From contig JABJKS010000105.1 in the NCBI GenBank assembly GCA_018660265.1, forward strand, positions 1 to 45,885: a stretch of DNA of 45,885 bases, written 5' to 3'. Below are positions 2,462-10,212 of this stretch, in pieces. The notes beneath the pieces were generated by a model. It searched no databases and was not told the origin of the DNA. It saw only the letters and a program-made list of their open reading frames with translations. Both the position numbers and the translations under genes were made by a program. This DNA comes from Rhodospirillaceae bacterium (GTDB lineage Bacteria; Pseudomonadota; Alphaproteobacteria; GCA-2731375). Each line of letters starts with the position of its first letter. Position 1 is the stretch's first letter.

Positions 2462-3682
2462 CTATTTCCGTCCGATTAATTCGAAAACTGTCATGGGCCC
2501 GTGGCCGGAAATTTCCACCGGGTCGTGGGGCCTGCAATCATATTCCGGGCCGAGGTGGGCTCTGGTCTGCTCCGTGATCAGGATATGCCCGGCACGACCG
2601 CATTGTTCAAGCTTGGCCGCGACATTTACCGTATCGCCCCAAACGTCATAGGAATATTTCCGTTTTCCGATCACGCCGGCGACAACCGGTCCGGAATGGA
2701 TACCAATTCTCATACTGACATCATGGATGTTTTCGCGACGCAATTTGGCCAGATAAACCATCAAATCGAGGGAGAAATCGGCCATTCGGCTGGCATGATC
2801 GGGATCAGCGGTTGGCATACCGGCTGCGGCCATATAGGCATCACCCACGGTTTTGATCTTTTCCACGCCGTGACGACCCGTCAAATCATCCAGGGCTGAA
2901 AAAACTTCATCCAACAGAGAGACAACCTTTTCCGGACTGCGGCGATTGGCGAATTCCGTGAAGCCTACAATATCGGCGAACATGATGGTGACGTCGTCCA
3001 GGCCATCAGCGATGGGCCGATCGTTAGATTTCAGCCGTCGGGCAATGCTATCGGGTAAAATATTGGCCAATACCATATCTGATTTTTGCCGCTCCTCAGC
3101 CACCAGTTCCATTGCGGCATCCTTCTGGCCGACGAAATAGTACATCAAAACAAATGAGACACTGCCTAAGCCCATGATATTGAGGGCAAAAAATACCCTG
3201 ATAATATCAGGCGGTAAATTGGACGTGCCGACAACACCTTGGCTTTCCAAAAATGCCGCCAGGATCAACAGGCAGACCAAACCCACCATCCAGGCCATGG
3301 ACTGACGCCTGTCGGCAAATAATAGGGCCGTGAACGGTGCCACTACGGACCAGATGATAACACCGGAGGATGGGATAAACCCACCCAGCACAAGCATCAG
3401 GAAAAACGGCAGAAGAATGCTAAAAGTGAATTGGCTGAAGCGGAATATTCGGTAGACGCGAATTCTGGCAAACAACAGCACGGATATTATCGAAGCCATT
3501 GAATAACCAATTGGAATGGCTGCCGCCCATGGTTCCTCGTAATAGAGATAAATGCCGCCCCAAAAGACCGCCGCAATGGCCATCATAATGGTCGATTGCA
3601 CGAGCAGGTTTTTGCGCAGGCGCAGGCCTTTATCGTCTTCAGCCAGGACGCCTATTCTATTGACTGTCGTGAGCAGAAACAT
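2462..3682 (-). CDS. Membrane-anchored class III adenylate cyclase
   Basis: 406 residues. The N-terminal half (about 28-185) has five or six hydrophobic segments, and residues 225-405 are a class III nucleotide cyclase domain that makes cAMP. Metal-binding aspartates sit in MFADIVGFT (Asp237) and VGDAYM (Asp281); Lys278 and Asp346 fit ATP specificity. The position usually held by the transition-state arginine (N-x3-R) reads Asn353-x3-Lys357, which is unusual. The gene starts 27 bases after the methyl-H4folate methyltransferase stop on the same strand, so it may be the last gene of the corrinoid operon, or it may only follow it. The upstream AAGG supports this start. Activity is inferred, not shown. 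Confidence 0.88.
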   Translation of the reverse strand: MFLLTTVNRIGVLAEDDKGLRLRKNLLVQSTIMMAIAAVFWGGIYLYYEEPWAAAIPIGYSMASIISVLLFARIRVYRIFRFSQFTFSILLPFFLMLVLGGFIPSSGVIIWSVVAPFTALLFADRRQSMAWMVGLVCLLILAAFLESQGVVGTSNLPPDIIRVFFALNIMGLGSVSFVLMYYFVGQKDAAMELVAEERQKSDMVLANILPDSIARRLKSNDRPIADGLDDVTIMFADIVGFTEFANRRSPEKVVSLLDEVFSALDDLTGRHGVEKIKTVGDAYMAAAGMPTADPDHASRMADFSLDLMVYLAKLRRENIHDVSMRIGIHSGPVVAGVIGKRKYSYDVWGDTVNVAAKLEQCGRAGHILITEQTRAHLGPEYDCRPHDPVEISGHGPMTVFELIGRK

Positions 3683-3709
3683 CTCCCCGAGCCTTGATAT
3701 TACGAAGAC

Positions 3710-4756
3710 TTATCGTATGACTTTCTTGCGCCAGGCTTTGATGTAGGCGGCGCAGTCCTTATCCTGCCCTAAAACCACCTCCATAGCCATTGCAACACCC
3801 TGTGAGGGGGCGCCCGGTGCTATGGGTGCCAGGGCGGCTGCCGGATCATTTTGCACCGGATCCATGATGCCGCTGTCGCCCCCCGCCTCCACTGCCAGGC
3901 GCAGGAAGGCTTCGTTGATGAATTTTCGCCCCGGCACGCCGAACGAGGCATTGGATATGCCGCCTGTAATGTGAATTTCAGGGCCAAAGCGCTCTCTGAT
4001 CTGGCGTATGGCGTTCAAGCAGTCGCGGCCATATTCGGGATCCACGGCAACGGGAAAGACCAGCGGGTCAAGGTATATGTCATTGGCGGCTATACCTTTT
4101 TCCATGGCTGCCTCAATCATCGTGGTGGCGTTTTTGACCCGGCCTTCGGTGCCATCAGGCATCGCACTCTCGCCGGCCGCTGTAACGATCACGGCAGCCT
4201 TGCAGTCGGCTGCCAGATCAAGGGCCGATGGCCGCTCCATGGAGGCTGAGTTCAACATGGGCGGGCCGTTGCACCCGTCATAGACTGCCAAACCGGCGGC
4301 AATGACGTCAATATCGGAGGAATCGATAGACAACGGCCGCGTCGCCATGCCCTGGACCTTATCCGTCAACCATTGCATGGCCTCTATTTGTTCTTCTTTC
4401 TTCAAAGAGACTTCATCCACGTTGATGTCCAGGAAATCTGCGCCCGCATCCTCCTGATGTTCGACAATGGCGCGGATATAGTTCAGGCCAATGTCGGCCA
4501 GATCACCGGCCCCATGCATGGCCTGATGCAGGGCGGCCTTCACATGTTTGACCCGGCCTTCCTGGAAATCCTGGGTCGCGGTGATGTTTTCGGGAATGGG
4601 CAATTGCCCATCCGTTCCGTCACGGCTGACATAAGAAATTGTCCCACCGCCATTTTCGTCCAGATTTACCCGTTTGTTGCGCTTGATGAGCGCCCGGGTG
4701 GTATGCACGTTCTCGCCAATGACCATGAAAGCCCGGTCCATGCCGTTGATTTTCAT
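3710..4756 (-). CDS. Methyltetrahydrofolate:corrinoid methyltransferase (AcsE/CmuB-like)
   Basis: 348 residues of the pterin-binding (dihydropteroate-synthase-fold) family that moves a methyl group between a corrinoid protein and tetrahydrofolate. Family motifs seen: DFLDINVDE, the SIDSS strand, NSASME, the DPLVFPV segment, and the hallmark GGISNASFGVPGR loop followed by FINEAFL. It lacks the other MetH domains, so it is a stand-alone methyltransferase as in AcsE, MtgA or CmuB. It lies 24 bases downstream of the activase gene and close to a corrinoid protein and a UroD-type methyltransferase, which supports a role in passing substrate methyl groups into the folate C1 pool. Direction and substrate are inferred. 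Confidence 0.88.
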   Translation of the reverse strand: MKINGMDRAFMVIGENVHTTRALIKRNKRVNLDENGGGTISYVSRDGTDGQLPIPENITATQDFQEGRVKHVKAALHQAMHGAGDLADIGLNYIRAIVEHQEDAGADFLDINVDEVSLKKEEQIEAMQWLTDKVQGMATRPLSIDSSDIDVIAAGLAVYDGCNGPPMLNSASMERPSALDLAADCKAAVIVTAAGESAMPDGTEGRVKNATTMIEAAMEKGIAANDIYLDPLVFPVAVDPEYGRDCLNAIRQIRERFGPEIHITGGISNASFGVPGRKFINEAFLRLAVEAGGDSGIMDPVQNDPAAALAPIAPGAPSQGVAMAMEVVLGQDKDCAAYIKAWRKKVIR

Positions 4757-4780
4757 CTCGTTTCCTCTAGTTCACCGGAT

Positions 4781-6787
4781 TTAGTTCACTGGCATTGGTT
4801 TAAAAAAGCAGGCCTCAACAAAAATATTGAAGAAATTCGCTTCGCTTTCCAATTCCACATGTTCGGCACGTCTTACCAATTGCTCCAGATGGGCCCGGCG
4901 ATCCAGGTTTAATAAAGCCTCCGCCGCGCCCAATAAGGACGTATTCCCCGCCTTGACCATCCGTTCTTCAGGGACCGCGGCCAACAGGCCAATATCGACC
5001 GCGTTGGTAAAGTTCACGTGGGAGGCAAAACCGCCAGCTAAATATAGCTTTTGAATGTCTTTTACACCGACGCCAAAGCGTTCCATAAGTATGGTTTGCC
5101 CGGCATTTGAGGCCGCCTTTGCTTGTGCTAAGTGACTGATATCAAGCCCGGAAAGGCAAATATCAGAACCCGGCACTACCGGTATGACCTTGATCCGCGC
5201 ACCATCAACACGGGCCAGGGCACCTTTTTCATTGATGCGGTCGTTCCGGCGCAGCACCGCCAGCAGATCGATCAGACCGGAACCGCATAAACCGAGGGGG
5301 CTGGTATCGCCAATCGTGCGAATTTCAAAGGTATCCCCCTCACCTTCGCTGACCGCCTCAATCGCACCGTCATAACTGGCCATGCCGTAGTCTACCAGGC
5401 CACCTTCGAAGGCAGGTCCGGCGGGGCAGGAGGCGACCATCAGACGTCCCTGCCCGGCCAGCACAATCTCCGTATTCGTGCCCATGTCCACCAGCATAAT
5501 GACGTCGTCGTCGTCGGGAGAAACACCCAGGGCCAATAGCGAGGCCGCAGCATCACCCCCGACATGAGAGGCGATCAGAGGCAAGCCGATAACCTGGCAT
5601 TTCGGATGCGCCCGCAGGCCCAGCTTGCGCGCCTCCACCTCTAACGTGGTGCTGTCCCGTTTGCCGTCCAAAACCGCCAGTTCGAAAGGGCTTTTGTAGG
5701 GGCGCTGGCCAATGGGCTGGACATCGCCCTTAAAGAACAGATCCCGCATGGTGGCATTGCCCGCCACCACGATTTCGTAGATTTCCCGGCGTTTGAAGTT
5801 AAACTGGGTGCAAAGTGCCTCAATCTCCCTGTTCAGGGCATTGATAATCACCTTGTGCAATTCTCCCTGATTGACCCCACCGTCGTAGGAGATCCGATGC
5901 ATGACGTCGCTACCACCAAAGCGTTGCGGATTTTCAAAGGATGCGATGGCAATCGACTTTCCCGTTTCCAGATCAAACAGATTGGCGGCAACGGTTGTTG
6001 TTCCCAGATCGATTGCCAGGCCATAGATATGGCCGCGATATTTATCGATGACATCGCCGTTGCGCAGAACATCGCCATCAACCCTTGTGATGGAAGGTAC
6101 AAGGGCTATTTGTTTTTCCAGGGGTGTTTCAAGGATACGCGGCGCCCGGATCAAGGGTTCAAAAGAAATCTCCACGCCTTCATCTAAAATTTCAGCCTGG
6201 CAGGCTAAGCGATAGTTATCGTTTAGGAATTCTTCAAATTCAGTACGTGGAATTAGGGCGTCCATGGCCCCGGTCGTATTATCAACGGTAACGATGCATT
6301 CGTGGCAATCACCATAGCGCCCGCAGGAACTGGCCAGGCGTATCCCCCGATCATCAGCCAGGTCGAACAGGGTTCTCGCCTCCGCCGTGTGCCCCGCCAT
6401 GCCGGCGCGACGATCTGGGCGATCTGGGCGTTCTGGGCGTTCTGCGCGCTTACCGGCAGCGTTTTTTCGCACTTTTTGTATCTTCTCTTTGGTTTTTTGA
6501 TAGCTTTCGGGCTTGCTTTCCCAGGCACCGCGGAAATCGAGGGTGCCGTCGTGGGCACAGATGGGTTCGCCTTCCTTTGTGCCCAGATCTTTTGAACCGG
6601 GATCTTTTGAGCCAGGATCGGCCCGATTGGCGCAGCCAAATTTCGCCGTGCAAATATCTTTTGCGCTGCGATAGGGGCAACGGCCCTGATCCTGGATCTT
6701 ATCTTGGGCGTTGGACAGAATATCGGCAAAGATATCCGTCATCTTGTCCAGGCTTTGTTGATAGTCTTTTTTACTGGGACCACTCAC
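4781..6787 (-). CDS. Corrinoid protein reductive activase ([2Fe-2S] + ASKHA, RamA/RACo-like)
   Basis: 668 residues. RACo-type proteins use ATP and a low-potential electron to re-reduce Co(II) corrinoid to Co(I). Residues 135-210 form a plant-type [2Fe-2S] ferredoxin domain with Cys155, Cys161, Cys164 and Cys196 (C-x5-C-x2-C...C). From about residue 250 comes the ASKHA ATPase part, with IDLGTTTVAANL, VAGNATM and VDMGTNTEIVL. The first 130 residues are unusual: they hold four more cysteines (37, 46, 52, 77), a KDPGS-type repeat near 57-71 and a RPERPDRPDRR linker at 117-127. The DNA behind the linkers is tandemly repeated. The gene sits between the corrinoid protein and the methyl-H4folate methyltransferase, as expected for a partner. 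Confidence 0.88.
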   Translation of the reverse strand: MSGPSKKDYQQSLDKMTDIFADILSNAQDKIQDQGRCPYRSAKDICTAKFGCANRADPGSKDPGSKDLGTKEGEPICAHDGTLDFRGAWESKPESYQKTKEKIQKVRKNAAGKRAERPERPDRPDRRAGMAGHTAEARTLFDLADDRGIRLASSCGRYGDCHECIVTVDNTTGAMDALIPRTEFEEFLNDNYRLACQAEILDEGVEISFEPLIRAPRILETPLEKQIALVPSITRVDGDVLRNGDVIDKYRGHIYGLAIDLGTTTVAANLFDLETGKSIAIASFENPQRFGGSDVMHRISYDGGVNQGELHKVIINALNREIEALCTQFNFKRREIYEIVVAGNATMRDLFFKGDVQPIGQRPYKSPFELAVLDGKRDSTTLEVEARKLGLRAHPKCQVIGLPLIASHVGGDAAASLLALGVSPDDDDVIMLVDMGTNTEIVLAGQGRLMVASCPAGPAFEGGLVDYGMASYDGAIEAVSEGEGDTFEIRTIGDTSPLGLCGSGLIDLLAVLRRNDRINEKGALARVDGARIKVIPVVPGSDICLSGLDISHLAQAKAASNAGQTILMERFGVGVKDIQKLYLAGGFASHVNFTNAVDIGLLAAVPEERMVKAGNTSLLGAAEALLNLDRRAHLEQLVRRAEHVELESEANFFNIFVEACFFKPMPVN
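6411..6446. repeat. Four tandem 9-bp units inside the activase gene
   Basis: Two copies of CGATCTGGG are followed by CGTTCTGGG and CGTTCTGCG. They encode the Arg-Pro-Asp/Glu linker between the Cys-rich N-terminus and the ferredoxin domain. The unit length is a multiple of three, so copy-number change would alter linker length without breaking the frame. Confidence 0.8.
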
Positions 6788-6817
6788 AGATAGGAATTCC
6801 TGTTCATAACCAAAACG

Positions 6818-7567
6818 TTAGGCCGCAGAGGCAATTAATTCCTTGGCCATGGCCACACAACTCAAGGCATCGGCACCATAGCCATCCGCCCCCATATCGT
6901 CGGAGAATTCCTGGGTAACAGGCGCACCACCCACCATGATCAGGACATCATCGCGTACATCGGCATCAATGAATGCCTCGATGGTTCTGCCCATGTTGGG
7001 CATGGTCGTGGTCAACAGGGCAGACATGCCCAAGACTTTGGCCCCGCTTTCCTCAACCGCATCAATGAACGTGTCCTCGGCCACATCAACGCCCAGGTCG
7101 ATGACCTCAAAGCCGGAACCGCGTAGCATCATAATGCAGAGGTTCTTGCCGATATCGTGCAAATCACCCTTGACCGTGCCCATGATCACCTTGCCCTGGC
7201 TTTCAATACCGGAGGCGGACAAAATCGGTTCAATATGCGCCATACCCGCCCGCATGGCACGGGCACAACTTAGCACTTCCGGGACAAAGACGAAGTTTTC
7301 GCGAAATTTGATGCCAACGATACCCATGCCGGCGATCAGACCATCATCCATGATTTCAATCGCATCGATGCCGTTCTCCAGGGCCTTGGCGGTCAGCGCG
7401 TCGACCTCATCATCATCGCCCTCGATAATAGCGGCGGCAATGTCCTGCATGGCCGGTTTGACCCGGGCAAAAAGCTCTGTAAAGCGTTCAATCTCGTCCG
7501 CACGCTCAAGATATTCCTCAATCTCGTCCTGAATGGTTTGGTTCTGGATATCACTCAATTCGGCCAT
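6818..7567 (-). CDS. Corrinoid (methylcobalamin-binding) protein, MtbC/MtaC-like
   Basis: 249 residues from the ATG at 7567; a TTG 15 bases upstream would add five residues but is less likely. Residues 1-105 form the helical cap domain found before B12 domains. Residues 125-249 are the cobalamin-binding Rossmann domain with the base-off/His-on motif DLHDIG (His137 as lower cobalt ligand), SALLTTTM and the GGAPVT loop. This is the shuttle protein that carries the methyl-corrinoid between the substrate-side and the folate-side methyltransferase. It lies between the UroD-type methyltransferase and the activase in one operon. Family assignment is secure; the substrate is unknown. Confidence 0.92.
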   Translation of the reverse strand: MAELSDIQNQTIQDEIEEYLERADEIERFTELFARVKPAMQDIAAAIIEGDDDEVDALTAKALENGIDAIEIMDDGLIAGMGIVGIKFRENFVFVPEVLSCARAMRAGMAHIEPILSASGIESQGKVIMGTVKGDLHDIGKNLCIMMLRGSGFEVIDLGVDVAEDTFIDAVEESGAKVLGMSALLTTTMPNMGRTIEAFIDADVRDDVLIMVGGAPVTQEFSDDMGADGYGADALSCVAMAKELIASAA

Positions 7568-7617
7568 GACGTCGAATACCAATCTATGAATAAAATGAAG
7601 CTGTTAGTGGCTAATAA

Positions 7618-8649
7618 TTAATGTGCTGCATGCCATTCACGCACGGCCTCTGGTATGGCGCGCAGATTGGCGATGGAGGTCTGCAGGGGCACGGCGCATT
7701 CGGGCCCGATCATCTGCACCCCTGCATCCAGATTGGCAAAAACCTCTGCCTTCACATCCTCAGGGCCCTTGGAGAACAGGGTTTCCGGGTTATTGATATT
7801 GCCGACCAGGGCAATGCGCCCTTCAACCGTCTGCATGGATTCCTCCGGGGCGTTTTTGGAGTCGTAATGAAAGGCCGCCATGCCGGTTTCAGAGATAAAG
7901 CCCATGCGGTCCACCGTTCGCCCGCAAATATGCAGGATCAGGGGGCAGGGAATTCGCTCGGCGAATTCGATATGCAAATCCCGCAGGTAACGTTGATAAT
8001 ATTCGCCGCTGACCAGATCTCCCGTGGCGTGATCCGGCAGGGTCAGGGCATCGACGCCGGCTTCGACCTGGGCAATGCCGAAATCTATAGTGACCTTTTT
8101 CAGTTTTTCCAGGATAGCTTTCGTAGCCTCTGGATCATCGAGGGAGAGGAGGAGGAATTTCTCAACCCCGAAACAATGATAGGCCAGGGACCAGGGCCCC
8201 ATGGTTTTGCCGATAATCGCCACATCAGGGCCAAGTTCCTCCCGCAACAGCTTGATCGCATCAAGAACACATTGGGTATCGGGATGTGAGGTTAAATCGT
8301 TGGGAATATAAATATCATCGACGCTGTCCCAGATCGGCTCACTCATGCGGACGGTGGGCCAGTTATCCTTGCCCTCCCACTGCATTTTGCAGCCCAGGGC
8401 GGAGGATTCCTGAATGATGGAGAAAACCGGCATCACACTGTCAAAACCAAGGATCGTGTGCGCCGTGGCTGCCAGGCGCGCCATGGGGGCGGCCTGTCGA
8501 TTGGCGTCAGGAAAGGGCGCATCCACCAAATCCATCAATTCCACGGTCGCGACCGATGTGGGGCAGCAAACCGGGGTTCTGTCCACTGGTTGACCGGCCA
8601 ATGCGGCCATAACCCGCTCTCTACTGGTCATGCTTTGAACTTCAGACAT
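7618..8649 (-). CDS. UroD-superfamily corrinoid methyltransferase (MtaA/MtbA/CmuA type)
   Basis: 343 residues, one uroporphyrinogen-decarboxylase-fold domain. It carries the zinc site of methyl-transferring members, His240-x-Cys242 (LILHICG) with Cys318 (GPECAVP), which true HemE lacks, so annotation as a haem enzyme would be wrong. In methanogens this fold moves methyl from corrinoid to coenzyme M; in CmuA it takes methyl from chloromethane to corrinoid. In this bacterium, next to a corrinoid protein and a methyl-H4folate methyltransferase, the second role is more likely, making this the best candidate for the substrate-demethylating enzyme. An AG-rich ribosome site lies about 10 bases upstream of the ATG. 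Confidence 0.85.
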   Translation of the reverse strand: MSEVQSMTSRERVMAALAGQPVDRTPVCCPTSVATVELMDLVDAPFPDANRQAAPMARLAATAHTILGFDSVMPVFSIIQESSALGCKMQWEGKDNWPTVRMSEPIWDSVDDIYIPNDLTSHPDTQCVLDAIKLLREELGPDVAIIGKTMGPWSLAYHCFGVEKFLLLSLDDPEATKAILEKLKKVTIDFGIAQVEAGVDALTLPDHATGDLVSGEYYQRYLRDLHIEFAERIPCPLILHICGRTVDRMGFISETGMAAFHYDSKNAPEESMQTVEGRIALVGNINNPETLFSKGPEDVKAEVFANLDAGVQMIGPECAVPLQTSIANLRAIPEAVREWHAAH

Positions 8650-8669
8650 GATATTCGTCCCCTCTTTCC

Positions 8670-9317
8670 CTATTCCCGGGCGCCGGGTGCGGCAAGAACG
8701 CCGCGGGCTGCATTCATTTCGTATTCCCGCATAACCGCGCGCACATTAGGTGCTGCCTGAAGCAACAGTCCCACCAGCGGGTCATGGTCGTGGCCGCAGT
8801 CAAAGCAAAACCGCACCGCCACCGCTTCATCCGCCTTGGCATCCGCCAGTTTCACCATGGCATTGCGCAAAGCCCCGAGACGACGGTCGTTTTCGCCGTT
8901 TTCTAAGGCTAGATCATAGACCCCCTGCCCCGCGTTGACGGCATTGATGGTCAGTTCGGACTTTTTGTCCCACATGGACAGTGTTCGTGCGGTCGGCGTT
9001 GCATCCGGTTTTTCCTTGCAAGCCTGCAGGAACAGCCGGCGCACGGCCACAAGATGTTCCCCGCCGCAGACAAATTGCACGCTGTCTTCGACAGAACCAG
9101 GCACCATACCACCCAGCTTTACCATCGCGTCCAATAGGTAGGTGATGCGATCGGCTATGCCGTCGTATTTGGCAAAACTGCGGATGCGATAGCACCATAT
9201 GCCGTCACTTTCAGTGGCATAAAGGCCAATAGATACGTCACGGAAATACTTGTCGGTTGAGACCAACTCCACACGGACACCCAAATCTGCGAAAGGATCT
9301 GAAAAGGGGTCTGCCAT
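8670..9317 (-). CDS. Uncharacterised protein, first gene of the corrinoid operon
   Basis: 215 residues from the ATG at 9317, chosen because AGGAGG (9324-9329 on the complement) stands six bases upstream; an in-frame extension to 9377 has no such site. I do not recognise the family. No signal peptide or membrane segment is seen. Near residue 180 there is a compact Cys/His cluster, FCFDCGHDHDP (C-x2-C-x-H-x-H), which could bind a metal. The stop lies about 20 bases before the UroD-type methyltransferase start, so it is co-transcribed and probably works with the corrinoid system, for example as a substrate-side or assembly subunit. That role is inference from position alone. Confidence 0.7.
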   Translation of the reverse strand: MADPFSDPFADLGVRVELVSTDKYFRDVSIGLYATESDGIWCYRIRSFAKYDGIADRITYLLDAMVKLGGMVPGSVEDSVQFVCGGEHLVAVRRLFLQACKEKPDATPTARTLSMWDKKSELTINAVNAGQGVYDLALENGENDRRLGALRNAMVKLADAKADEAVAVRFCFDCGHDHDPLVGLLLQAAPNVRAVMREYEMNAARGVLAAPGARE

Positions 9318-9393
9318 GAACGTCCTCCTGCAAAAAAACATGGCCTCCGGAATGGAAGCTTGACGCAAAGGGGCCAAAAGAACAGAATTGGCC

Positions 9394-9410
9394 AGCTGGT
9401 CAGACCAATT
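9394..9410. promoter_or_regulatory. Predicted FadR-type GntR operator
   Basis: The sequence AGCTGGTCAGACCAATT contains the inverted repeat TGGT-N3-ACCA centred on 9402, close to the known FadR/PdhR operator pattern (TTGGT-N3-ACCAA). It lies between the divergent corrinoid operon (start 9317) and the GntR-family gene (start 9466), so the regulator could control both. Confidence 0.65.
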
Positions 9411-9465: not shown

Positions 9466-10212
9466 ATGGTCCAAAATGCTTTCCCATCCGGTCCCTATCA
9501 GCAGGTCAAACGGGCCACGGTGAGTGACGCCATCGTCGATCAATTACTGCACCTGATCACAACAGATGTTTTGAAGCCAGGCGAACGACTGCCCTCTGAG
9601 CGTGATTTGTGCAAACGGTTCGGGGTTGGCCGCACATCTGTGCGGGAGGCGCTGAAGCCTTTGATTGCCATGGGGGTTTTGGAAGGCCGGGTCGGTAGTG
9701 GCACCTATGTAGCGGCAGAGGCGGCGCAATTCAAAAAATCCCTTGAATGGGGCCTGTTGTCGAACCTGCACGGCCAGGACGATCTGGTGGAAACCCGGGC
9801 TATGTTGGAAACCAATGCCGCTCTGTGGGCAGCACTTCGGGCACAACCGGAAAACCTGGGCGCGATTGAAGCAACGGTCCACGGCATGGCGGAATTCATC
9901 GATGATCCGGCCCGTTTTCAGGAATTTGACGCCAATTTCCATTTTGAGATCGCCCGCGCCACCCAGAACAAGATCCTGTTTCGCCTGATTAATGTCATTC
10001 GCGGCCAGATCCAAACCTGGATCGGTGAACGCATGGCCTTGGCACCGAACCGGGTTGAGGCTCTGTCCCAGATTTCCCTTACCCAGCATCGGGCCATATT
10101 TGACGCTATAGCACGGAAAGACGGCGAAGCCGCACAAGCCGCCATGACCCATCACATCCAGACCGCGACAGATGATTTACGGGTTTCAGAGATAAGTAAA
10201 CTGTCACCGTAA
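9466..10212 (+). CDS. GntR-family transcriptional regulator, FadR/FCD subfamily
   Basis: 248 residues. The winged helix-turn-helix occupies about residues 15-83, with the diagnostic RLPSERDLCKRFGVGRTSVR stretch and the wing GRVGSGTYV. Residues 100-235 are an all-helical FCD ligand-binding domain. FadR-type regulators usually repress catabolic operons and are released by a small acid or pathway intermediate. It is divergent from the corrinoid methyl-transfer operon, and a matching TGGT-N3-ACCA palindrome lies between them, so it most likely controls that operon and itself. The effector cannot be read from the sequence. Its 3' end overlaps a decayed minus-strand frame by about 107 bases. Confidence 0.9.
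   Translation: MVQNAFPSGPYQQVKRATVSDAIVDQLLHLITTDVLKPGERLPSERDLCKRFGVGRTSVREALKPLIAMGVLEGRVGSGTYVAAEAAQFKKSLEWGLLSNLHGQDDLVETRAMLETNAALWAALRAQPENLGAIEATVHGMAEFIDDPARFQEFDANFHFEIARATQNKILFRLINVIRGQIQTWIGERMALAPNRVEALSQISLTQHRAIFDAIARKDGEAAQAAMTHHIQTATDDLRVSEISKLSP

Follow-up and report, generated by a model that had tools for sequence, protein, structure and literature searches.

A contig of a Rhodospirillaceae bacterium (GenBank assembly GCA_018660265.1, contig JABJKS010000105.1) carries an operon for corrinoid-dependent methyl transfer, which we describe here. The whole stretch analyzed, 45,885 nucleotides long, is called the window, and all coordinates refer to it; G000 denotes its genome, and C-numbers denote the contigs of that genome. 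The operon runs on the minus strand from 9317 down to 3710 and consists of five open reading frames (ORFs) spaced 20 to 35 bp apart, none of them interrupted. In order, they encode p235, an orphan protein; an MtaA-like methyltransferase of the UroD superfamily; a corrinoid protein; a RACo-type activase; and a pterin methyltransferase (Table 1). A sequence-only reading had placed a UroD-type methyltransferase, a corrinoid protein, a RACo-type activase, and a methyl-tetrahydrofolate (methyl-H4folate) methyltransferase in one operon, and all four are present on the minus strand with strong Pfam matches. The span that it gave, 2462 to 9317, covers the operon; its lower end takes in a neighboring cyclase gene, and its upper end is the ATG of p235, a gene that it had omitted.

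That ATG at 9317 is preceded by AGGAGG, and a TTG upstream at 9377 also lies in the open frame. The top NCBIfam model for the corrinoid protein is of the MtgC type, and the pterin methyltransferase matches PRK07535 (1.1e-57), each with a score under the cut-off of the model. The operon therewith holds the full set of an enzyme of the UroD-/MttB-type class, a corrinoid protein, a pterin methyltransferase, and RACo. Of the ten proteins between 466 and 11912 that were scanned with Pfam, none belongs to the MttB or the MtaB family, and the operon encodes no homocysteine methyltransferase. The absence of MttB, which the sequence-only reading had reported, stands for the operon and not for the genome, where one MttB-family gene lies on contig C11. 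A search of the window and 7 related loci for riboswitches gave no hit above threshold except the tRNA. The cyclase gene starts 27 bp past the operon; because it is retained in some close relatives only, it was left out of the system.

Table 1. Features of the corrinoid operon and its flanks
Feature	Coordinates	Strand	Evidence or remark
p235, orphan 215-amino-acid protein	8670..9317	-	Two half-repeats, each with an F-x-C-x3-H motif
MtaA-like UroD-superfamily methyltransferase, proposed donor-side enzyme (MT1)	7618..8649	-	URO-D 1.2e-65; triad H240, C242, C318
Corrinoid-binding protein, B12-binding_2 + B12-binding	6818..7582	-	B12-binding 2.3e-27
RACo-type ATP-dependent reductive activase with 2Fe-2S ferredoxin domain	4781..6787	-	RACo_C_ter 4.9e-66
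Pterin-binding methyltransferase (methyl-H4folate:corrinoid), proposed acceptor-side enzyme	3710..4756	-	Pterin_bind 1.8e-23
GntR-family regulator with FCD ligand domain	9466..10212	+	Pfam FCD 4.1e-25, GntR 8.4e-19; divergent from operon
Candidate operator of the GntR/FCD regulator, TGGTCAGACCA	9397..9407	.	Intergenic, between the divergent genes; putative role
Adenylate/guanylate cyclase, downstream neighbor	2462..3682	-	Pfam; weak MASE6-like membrane part; no corrinoid component

The MtaA-like protein and its partner p235

The MtaA-like protein passes both the mtaA_cmuA model TIGR01463 (247.5 bits; cut-off, 235.4) and the methylcobalamin:coenzyme M methyltransferase model (259.5; cut-off, 244) and fails the hemE model (65 bits; cut-off, 303). 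G000 contains only two PF01208 proteins, this one and a true HemE on contig C60, and the grouping with HemE that the sequence-only reading had named as fatal to its proposal was not found. Among solved structures, MtaA (4ay7) leads at 181 bits, followed by UroD at 52. Identity to MtaA is 30% over 342 alignment columns, above the >25% to a characterized soluble coenzyme M methyltransferase by which MtaA-like proteins are recognized.

His240, Cys242, and Cys318, at the positions claimed by the sequence-only reading, align with the same residues of MtaA and are kept in 12 of 12 rows of the clade, in MtaA, and in three Acetoanaerobium relatives. The corresponding positions are H/P/S in a CmuA-like protein of another genome (G343) and G/P/H in HemE. 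As judged by alignment, MtaA-type thiol methyltransferases have this triad, and it would hold zinc. Passages of PMC10418091 treat His-Cys-Cys as characteristic of S- or Se-methyltransferases, with one or both cysteines substituted in O-methyltransferases of the superfamily. The triad suggests that the donor methyl is most likely bonded to sulfur or selenium. The sequence-only reading had left the donor open among methyl halides, methylated amines, sulfur compounds, and aryl ethers; the triad narrows this choice toward sulfur or selenium and makes halide, amine, and aryl ether less likely.

In a 20-row tree, the MtaA-like protein falls into a clade of its own (support, 99/98), whose members are labelled Planctomycetota, Acidobacteriota, Poribacteria, Latescibacterota, Gemmatimonadota, and Verrucomicrobiota. 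Its identity is 73 to 92% across the 80 related loci listed, which span phyla; records with an 88 to 92% identical protein are called Alphaproteobacteria, Rhodospirillaceae, or Proteobacteria.

The sequence-only reading had compared the protein to the CmuA domain. A methyl halide dehalogenase like CmuA/CmuB, its UroD-type domain taking the methyl group from chloromethane, would share with the window operon a UroD-type donor enzyme, a corrinoid protein, a folate acceptor, and a bacterial host, and TIGR01463 is passed; parts of PMC12478193 also report a roseobacter MtgC corrinoid protein near CmuA in a tree. The triad does not support the analogy, since both cysteines present in the window protein are lacking in the CmuA-like protein examined, which scores 103 against the coenzyme M methyltransferase model and 350 against mtaA_cmuA (259.5 and 247.5, respectively, for the window protein) and whose genome is without p235. 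According to the accessible text of PMC13222342, CmuA is methyltransferase and corrinoid protein in one, whereas the window operon encodes them as separate ORFs. The same source describes CdmBCA, another chloromethane system, which likewise has three separate parts (a UroD-type MT1, a corrinoid protein, and a pterin acceptor-side enzyme [MT2]); CdmBCA, however, comes from anaerobes, its superfamily dehalogenase CdmB needs no zinc, and it is nearest to O-demethylases. We regard chloromethane dehalogenation by this operon as very improbable.

Three further UroD-type loci were recorded. The CmuA-like gene of G343 (L143:2016-3647) lies near an LtrA gene and is cut off at the contig end. Plasmids of Thiodictyon (L144:3341-6674) and Azoarcus (L146:3375-6842) carry genes for a corrinoid protein, a UroD-type protein in which Ala replaces Cys242, and an activase-like protein (annotated as ASKHA in Thiodictyon and as ATP-binding in Azoarcus). 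The p235 profile had no match in the L143, L144, or L146 stretches.

The p235 protein of the window matches no Pfam or NCBIfam family. A family alignment of 36 rows was chosen from 69 members found in the loci, with L024 excluded because it lay on the wrong strand; a Pfam scan of these rows gave one match each to Erythro-docking (0.00033) and DUF7071 (0.095), both judged to be chance. C84, H88, C174, and H178 are invariant in the alignment. The two halves match each other with an HHalign probability of 96.4% over 55 columns and therefore form an internal repeat, and in an AlphaFold2 model (mean pLDDT, 92) the order of strands and helices is identical in both. Comparison of the model with known folds gave a best Foldseek E value of 0.06 and a best VIA-align Z score of 5.6 over 78 residues, and the profile had no match among PDB sequences (best E value, 0.19); p235 is accordingly assigned to neither a known nor a novel fold. 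Kinship with DUF1638 was rejected on an HHalign probability of 0.1% against the DUF1638 protein of G000. p235 is the most diagnostic member of the operon, and it may take part in the donor step.

Within the class of the window, p235 is present in 11 of 385 genomes. The mtaA_cmuA model matches 12, namely the same 11 and G343. All 11 (ten fetched plus the window; four, the window included, belong to the genus of the window) carry the p235, MtaA-like, corrinoid, RACo, and pterin genes in identical order, an arrangement far beyond chance. The RACo gene is split in two in 6 of the ten fetched loci. Two of the ten are also among the 80 related loci, with DNA shared between L103 and L008 and between L104 and L006.

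In the 80 loci, a gene counted as in reach if it lay on the same strand and no more than 9 kb ahead or 8 kb behind; such counts are lower bounds, because many loci stop at contig edges. In 78 loci, p235 precedes the MtaA-like gene on the same strand by no more than 1.5 kb, with a gap of at most 200 bp in 69 and of 541 to 1456 bp in 9. In one of the 78 (L059) the two genes overlap by 4 bp; the other 77 were counted by a script rule. Upstream p235 is absent in L083 and L085. A corrinoid gene is in reach in 38 loci and RACo in 35, and where the genes are split up, p235 stays with the MtaA-like gene and not with RACo. We take the host lineages, from record titles and general knowledge, to be marine, sponge-associated, or soil bacteria.

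Other genes adjoin the pair in places. An extra gene of one family, encoding about 160 to 210 amino acids, lies between p235 and the MtaA-like gene in poribacterial L015, L020, L025, L026, and L080, and a cupin gene of one family adjoins the MtaA-like gene in planctomycete L082 (7182-7967) and L085 (479-1408). A role of these cupins as dimethylsulfoniopropionate (DMSP) lyases was dropped, as no NCBIfam model scored above its cut-off.

Acceptor modules and proposed direction of transfer

Of the 80 loci, 17 have a pterin methyltransferase in reach and 14 have a homocysteine methyltransferase, which in L018 and L069 is cut short where the locus ends; 3 loci have both. For each of the six Latescibacteria loci with a homocysteine methyltransferase, and for L077, L078, and L081, Pfam verified this gene. 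MTHFR is in reach in 8 loci (four checked with Pfam), which fits oxidation of methyl-H4folate.

Sixteen poribacterial genomes with the gene pair, from among the loci where the pair has no corrinoid gene nearby, were followed up. Each has one RACo, located away from the pair; 14 have a homocysteine-methyltransferase domain no more than about 2 kb from this RACo, and in 15 no pterin domain was found outside MetH. Eight of the 16 RACo loci were fetched, two of them being checked with Pfam. RACo is followed by a homocysteine methyltransferase in six, with a corrinoid gene adjacent in five and 4 kb off in L141; of the other two, L138 has a pterin methyltransferase and MTHFR, and L142 has neither acceptor.

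The constant parts are thus p235, the MtaA-like protein, the corrinoid protein, and RACo, and the variable part is the enzyme on the acceptor side. With a constant part facing a changing acceptor, the p235/MtaA-like pair appears to be the best candidate for the donor step; this is our main argument, and it is not a proof. The sequence-only reading had named the UroD-type protein as the sole candidate, which holds within the operon apart from p235, which it overlooked. On balance, and with moderate confidence, we read the locus as an inducible corrinoid demethylation operon in which the MtaA-like protein and p235 take a methyl group from a probably S- (or Se-)bound donor.

Several observations weigh against this reading. 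The pair lacks a corrinoid gene in reach in 42 of the 80 loci, almost all of which bear the label Poribacteria, and its corrinoid partner there is therefore assigned from the genome. MetH scores above its cut-off in 25 of 27 pair-bearing genomes (in four of these the match does not include the homocysteine part; G224 and G398 are the two below it), so it is not evident why methionine would require a second methyl route. The deeper branching order of the 20-row tree is ambiguous, with long branches, one of which bears the single CmuA-like row. The annotated flanking genes differ between phyla, and none of them names a substrate; CobW, MTHFR, PF13769, an amidohydrolase, an oligopeptide ABC transporter, and other neighbors are none of them recurrent enough to give a clue to it. 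Methanethiol oxidase occurs in 1 of the 11 operon-bearing genomes and in 28 of 374 others and is not enriched, which weakens a version of the reading in which dimethylsulfide yields methanethiol; the donor is accordingly kept open within methylthio and methylseleno compounds. Finally, MtaA, the nearest solved relative, works in reverse by methylating a thiol, and an acceptor role is chemically possible.

On this last ground, the MtaA-like protein could be an MT2 that passes methyl from methyl-H4folate through the corrinoid to a thiol, as MtaA does with coenzyme M. Its triad is the same as that of MtaA, and passages of PMC12478193 propose that the pterin methyltransferase MtgD of Ruegeria is bidirectional. 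The methyltransferase beside RACo, however, is of the homocysteine type in 14 of 16 poribacterial genomes and in the six Latescibacteria loci. Methionine is an unfavorable methyl donor to a corrinoid, which counts against transfer in that direction. The MTHFR in reach in 8 of 80 loci likewise suggests folate-linked methyl oxidation, and we consider an MT2 role unlikely.

The homocysteine methyltransferases in reach in 14 loci also raise the possibility of a variant (split) MetH, in which the MtaA-like protein and p235 would be an accessory module for methionine formation or for reactivation, a role tentatively ascribed to DUF1638 in Phaeobacter. Portions of PMC5764234 and PMC12478193 describe split MetH together with a RamA-like protein. 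Against this stand the MetH of 25 of 27 genomes, the window operon without a homocysteine methyltransferase, the lack of relationship between p235 and the DUF1638 protein of G000, and the persistence of p235 with the MtaA-like gene rather than RACo where the genes are split. This explanation seems to us decidedly improbable.

G000 (5.55 Mb, 121 contigs) encodes two PF02574 proteins besides a full MetH. A separate operon on C11 (L088:8296-15341) encodes an MttB-family protein, a corrinoid protein, DUF1638, a pterin methyltransferase, and RACo; its parts are 31 to 50% identical to the matching parts of the window operon. It looks like the MtgBCD glycine betaine system outlined in the sections of PMC12478193 at hand, and a creatinase-type M24 peptidase gene comes after its RACo gene. 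The MttB family is represented in 3 of the 11 operon-bearing class genomes and missing from the other 8, and one-sequence profiles found neither MttB nor DUF1638 in the 80 loci. MtaB was found in none of the 27 pair-bearing genomes, where MtmB and MtbB were not searched for. An additional MT1 gene accompanying every homologous operon, which the sequence-only reading had raised as an objection to itself, is for MttB and MtaB not what these genomes contain.

Regulation, proposed mechanism, and related systems

A GntR/FCD gene like that of the window occurs in 18 other loci. It adjoins p235 in divergent orientation in 17 of them and lies 5 kb from p235 in L073. The upstream stretches of seven sequences were aligned. 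Of 18 sequences, 13 (the window and 12 of the 17 regulator loci) contain GGTCNGACC upstream of p235, four more contain TTGTCNGACAA, and L055, where the p235 match is partial, has neither. The 17 loci total 249,349 bp, and all 12 copies of GGTCNGACC in them fall in the stretches upstream of p235; of the 61 other loci, one (L073) contains it. The palindrome TTGGTCNGACCA is likely the target of the GntR protein, and regulator and palindrome are retained across phyla. FCD regulators often sense small organic acids. Control by a ligand would suit an operon for using a donor more than one for steady biosynthesis.

In the mechanism that we propose, the MtaA-like protein together with p235 would remove a methyl group, probably one on sulfur (or selenium), from a small compound and pass it to the Co(I) of the corrinoid protein, while the leaving thiolate would be carried by zinc at His240/Cys242/Cys318. 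RACo, by means of its ferredoxin domain and ATP, would re-reduce corrinoid that has fallen to Co(II). In G000 the methyl group would go to tetrahydrofolate by way of the pterin enzyme, and in other phyla the same donor module would feed homocysteine to form methionine. The GntR/FCD protein, perhaps sensing a small acid, may repress the operon through the conserved palindrome.

No publication describing this operon was found among the papers that turned up, covered by their titles and abstract openings and in part by full text. A close likeness is to the mlp gene clusters (MGCs), which, in the available text of PMC10418091, also combine an MtaA-like protein with His-Cys-Cys, a corrinoid protein, and a RACo-type activase and are widespread. 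By the same text, Type 1 MGCs have at least two MtaA-like proteins and no H4folate methylase within 20 kb; the window operon has neither property, with one MtaA-like protein and a pterin methyltransferase of its own. MGCs are reported there from obligate anaerobes, and p235 is a feature of the window operon. MtsA/MtsB and MtpCAP of Methanosarcina, as presented in part of PMC7374477, resemble the window system by description, in that they are coenzyme M methyltransferases and use dimethylsulfide or methylmercaptopropionate together with a corrinoid protein; their acceptor is coenzyme M, whereas folate or homocysteine is proposed here, along with p235. MtgBCDE and the split methionine synthase of Ruegeria and Phaeobacter (partial texts of PMC12478193 and PMC5764234) are likewise bacterial, with a stand-alone corrinoid protein, a RamA-type activase, pterin and homocysteine methyltransferases, and a metF paralog, as are met with in the loci of this system. 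The donor enzyme of MtgBCDE, however, is of the MttB family and goes with DUF1638, in place of the MtaA-like protein with p235, and G000 has both kinds of operon. A corrinoid methyltransferase with its activase is known; the variant found here, in which a proposed donor enzyme of the MtaA-like type has an orphan partner that looks obligate and either folate or homocysteine would be the acceptor, is not described in the text of those papers that was consulted.

As for the donor, the portion of PMC7374477 consulted assigns dimethylsulfide and methylmercaptopropionate to MtsA with the corrinoid protein MtsB, and methylmercaptopropionate to mtpCAP, in methanogens. In PMC6548844, as far as its text was available, a dimethylsulfide methyltransferase was suggested for the marine methylotroph Methylophaga and was still unidentified in 2019. 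A word search of PMC5395565 found no mention of mercaptopropionate or MPA. A more specific form of our reading, that the operon is a thioether-demethylating system of presumed aerobes whose hitherto undescribed two-protein donor module can be plugged into folate or homocysteine, with 3-methylmercaptopropionate or dimethylsulfide as possible donors, is offered as speculation that we consider unlikely.

Such an operon is found mostly in bacteria that also hold MetH. Corrinoid demethylases determine which methylated compounds a microbe uses, and assignment of a substrate here would name a family now recognized only as relatives of UroD and coenzyme M methyltransferases. It could also fill a missing step in the use of dimethylsulfide or methylthio acids and, if the thioether version is true, would supply the genes for corrinoid thioether demethylation in aerobes.

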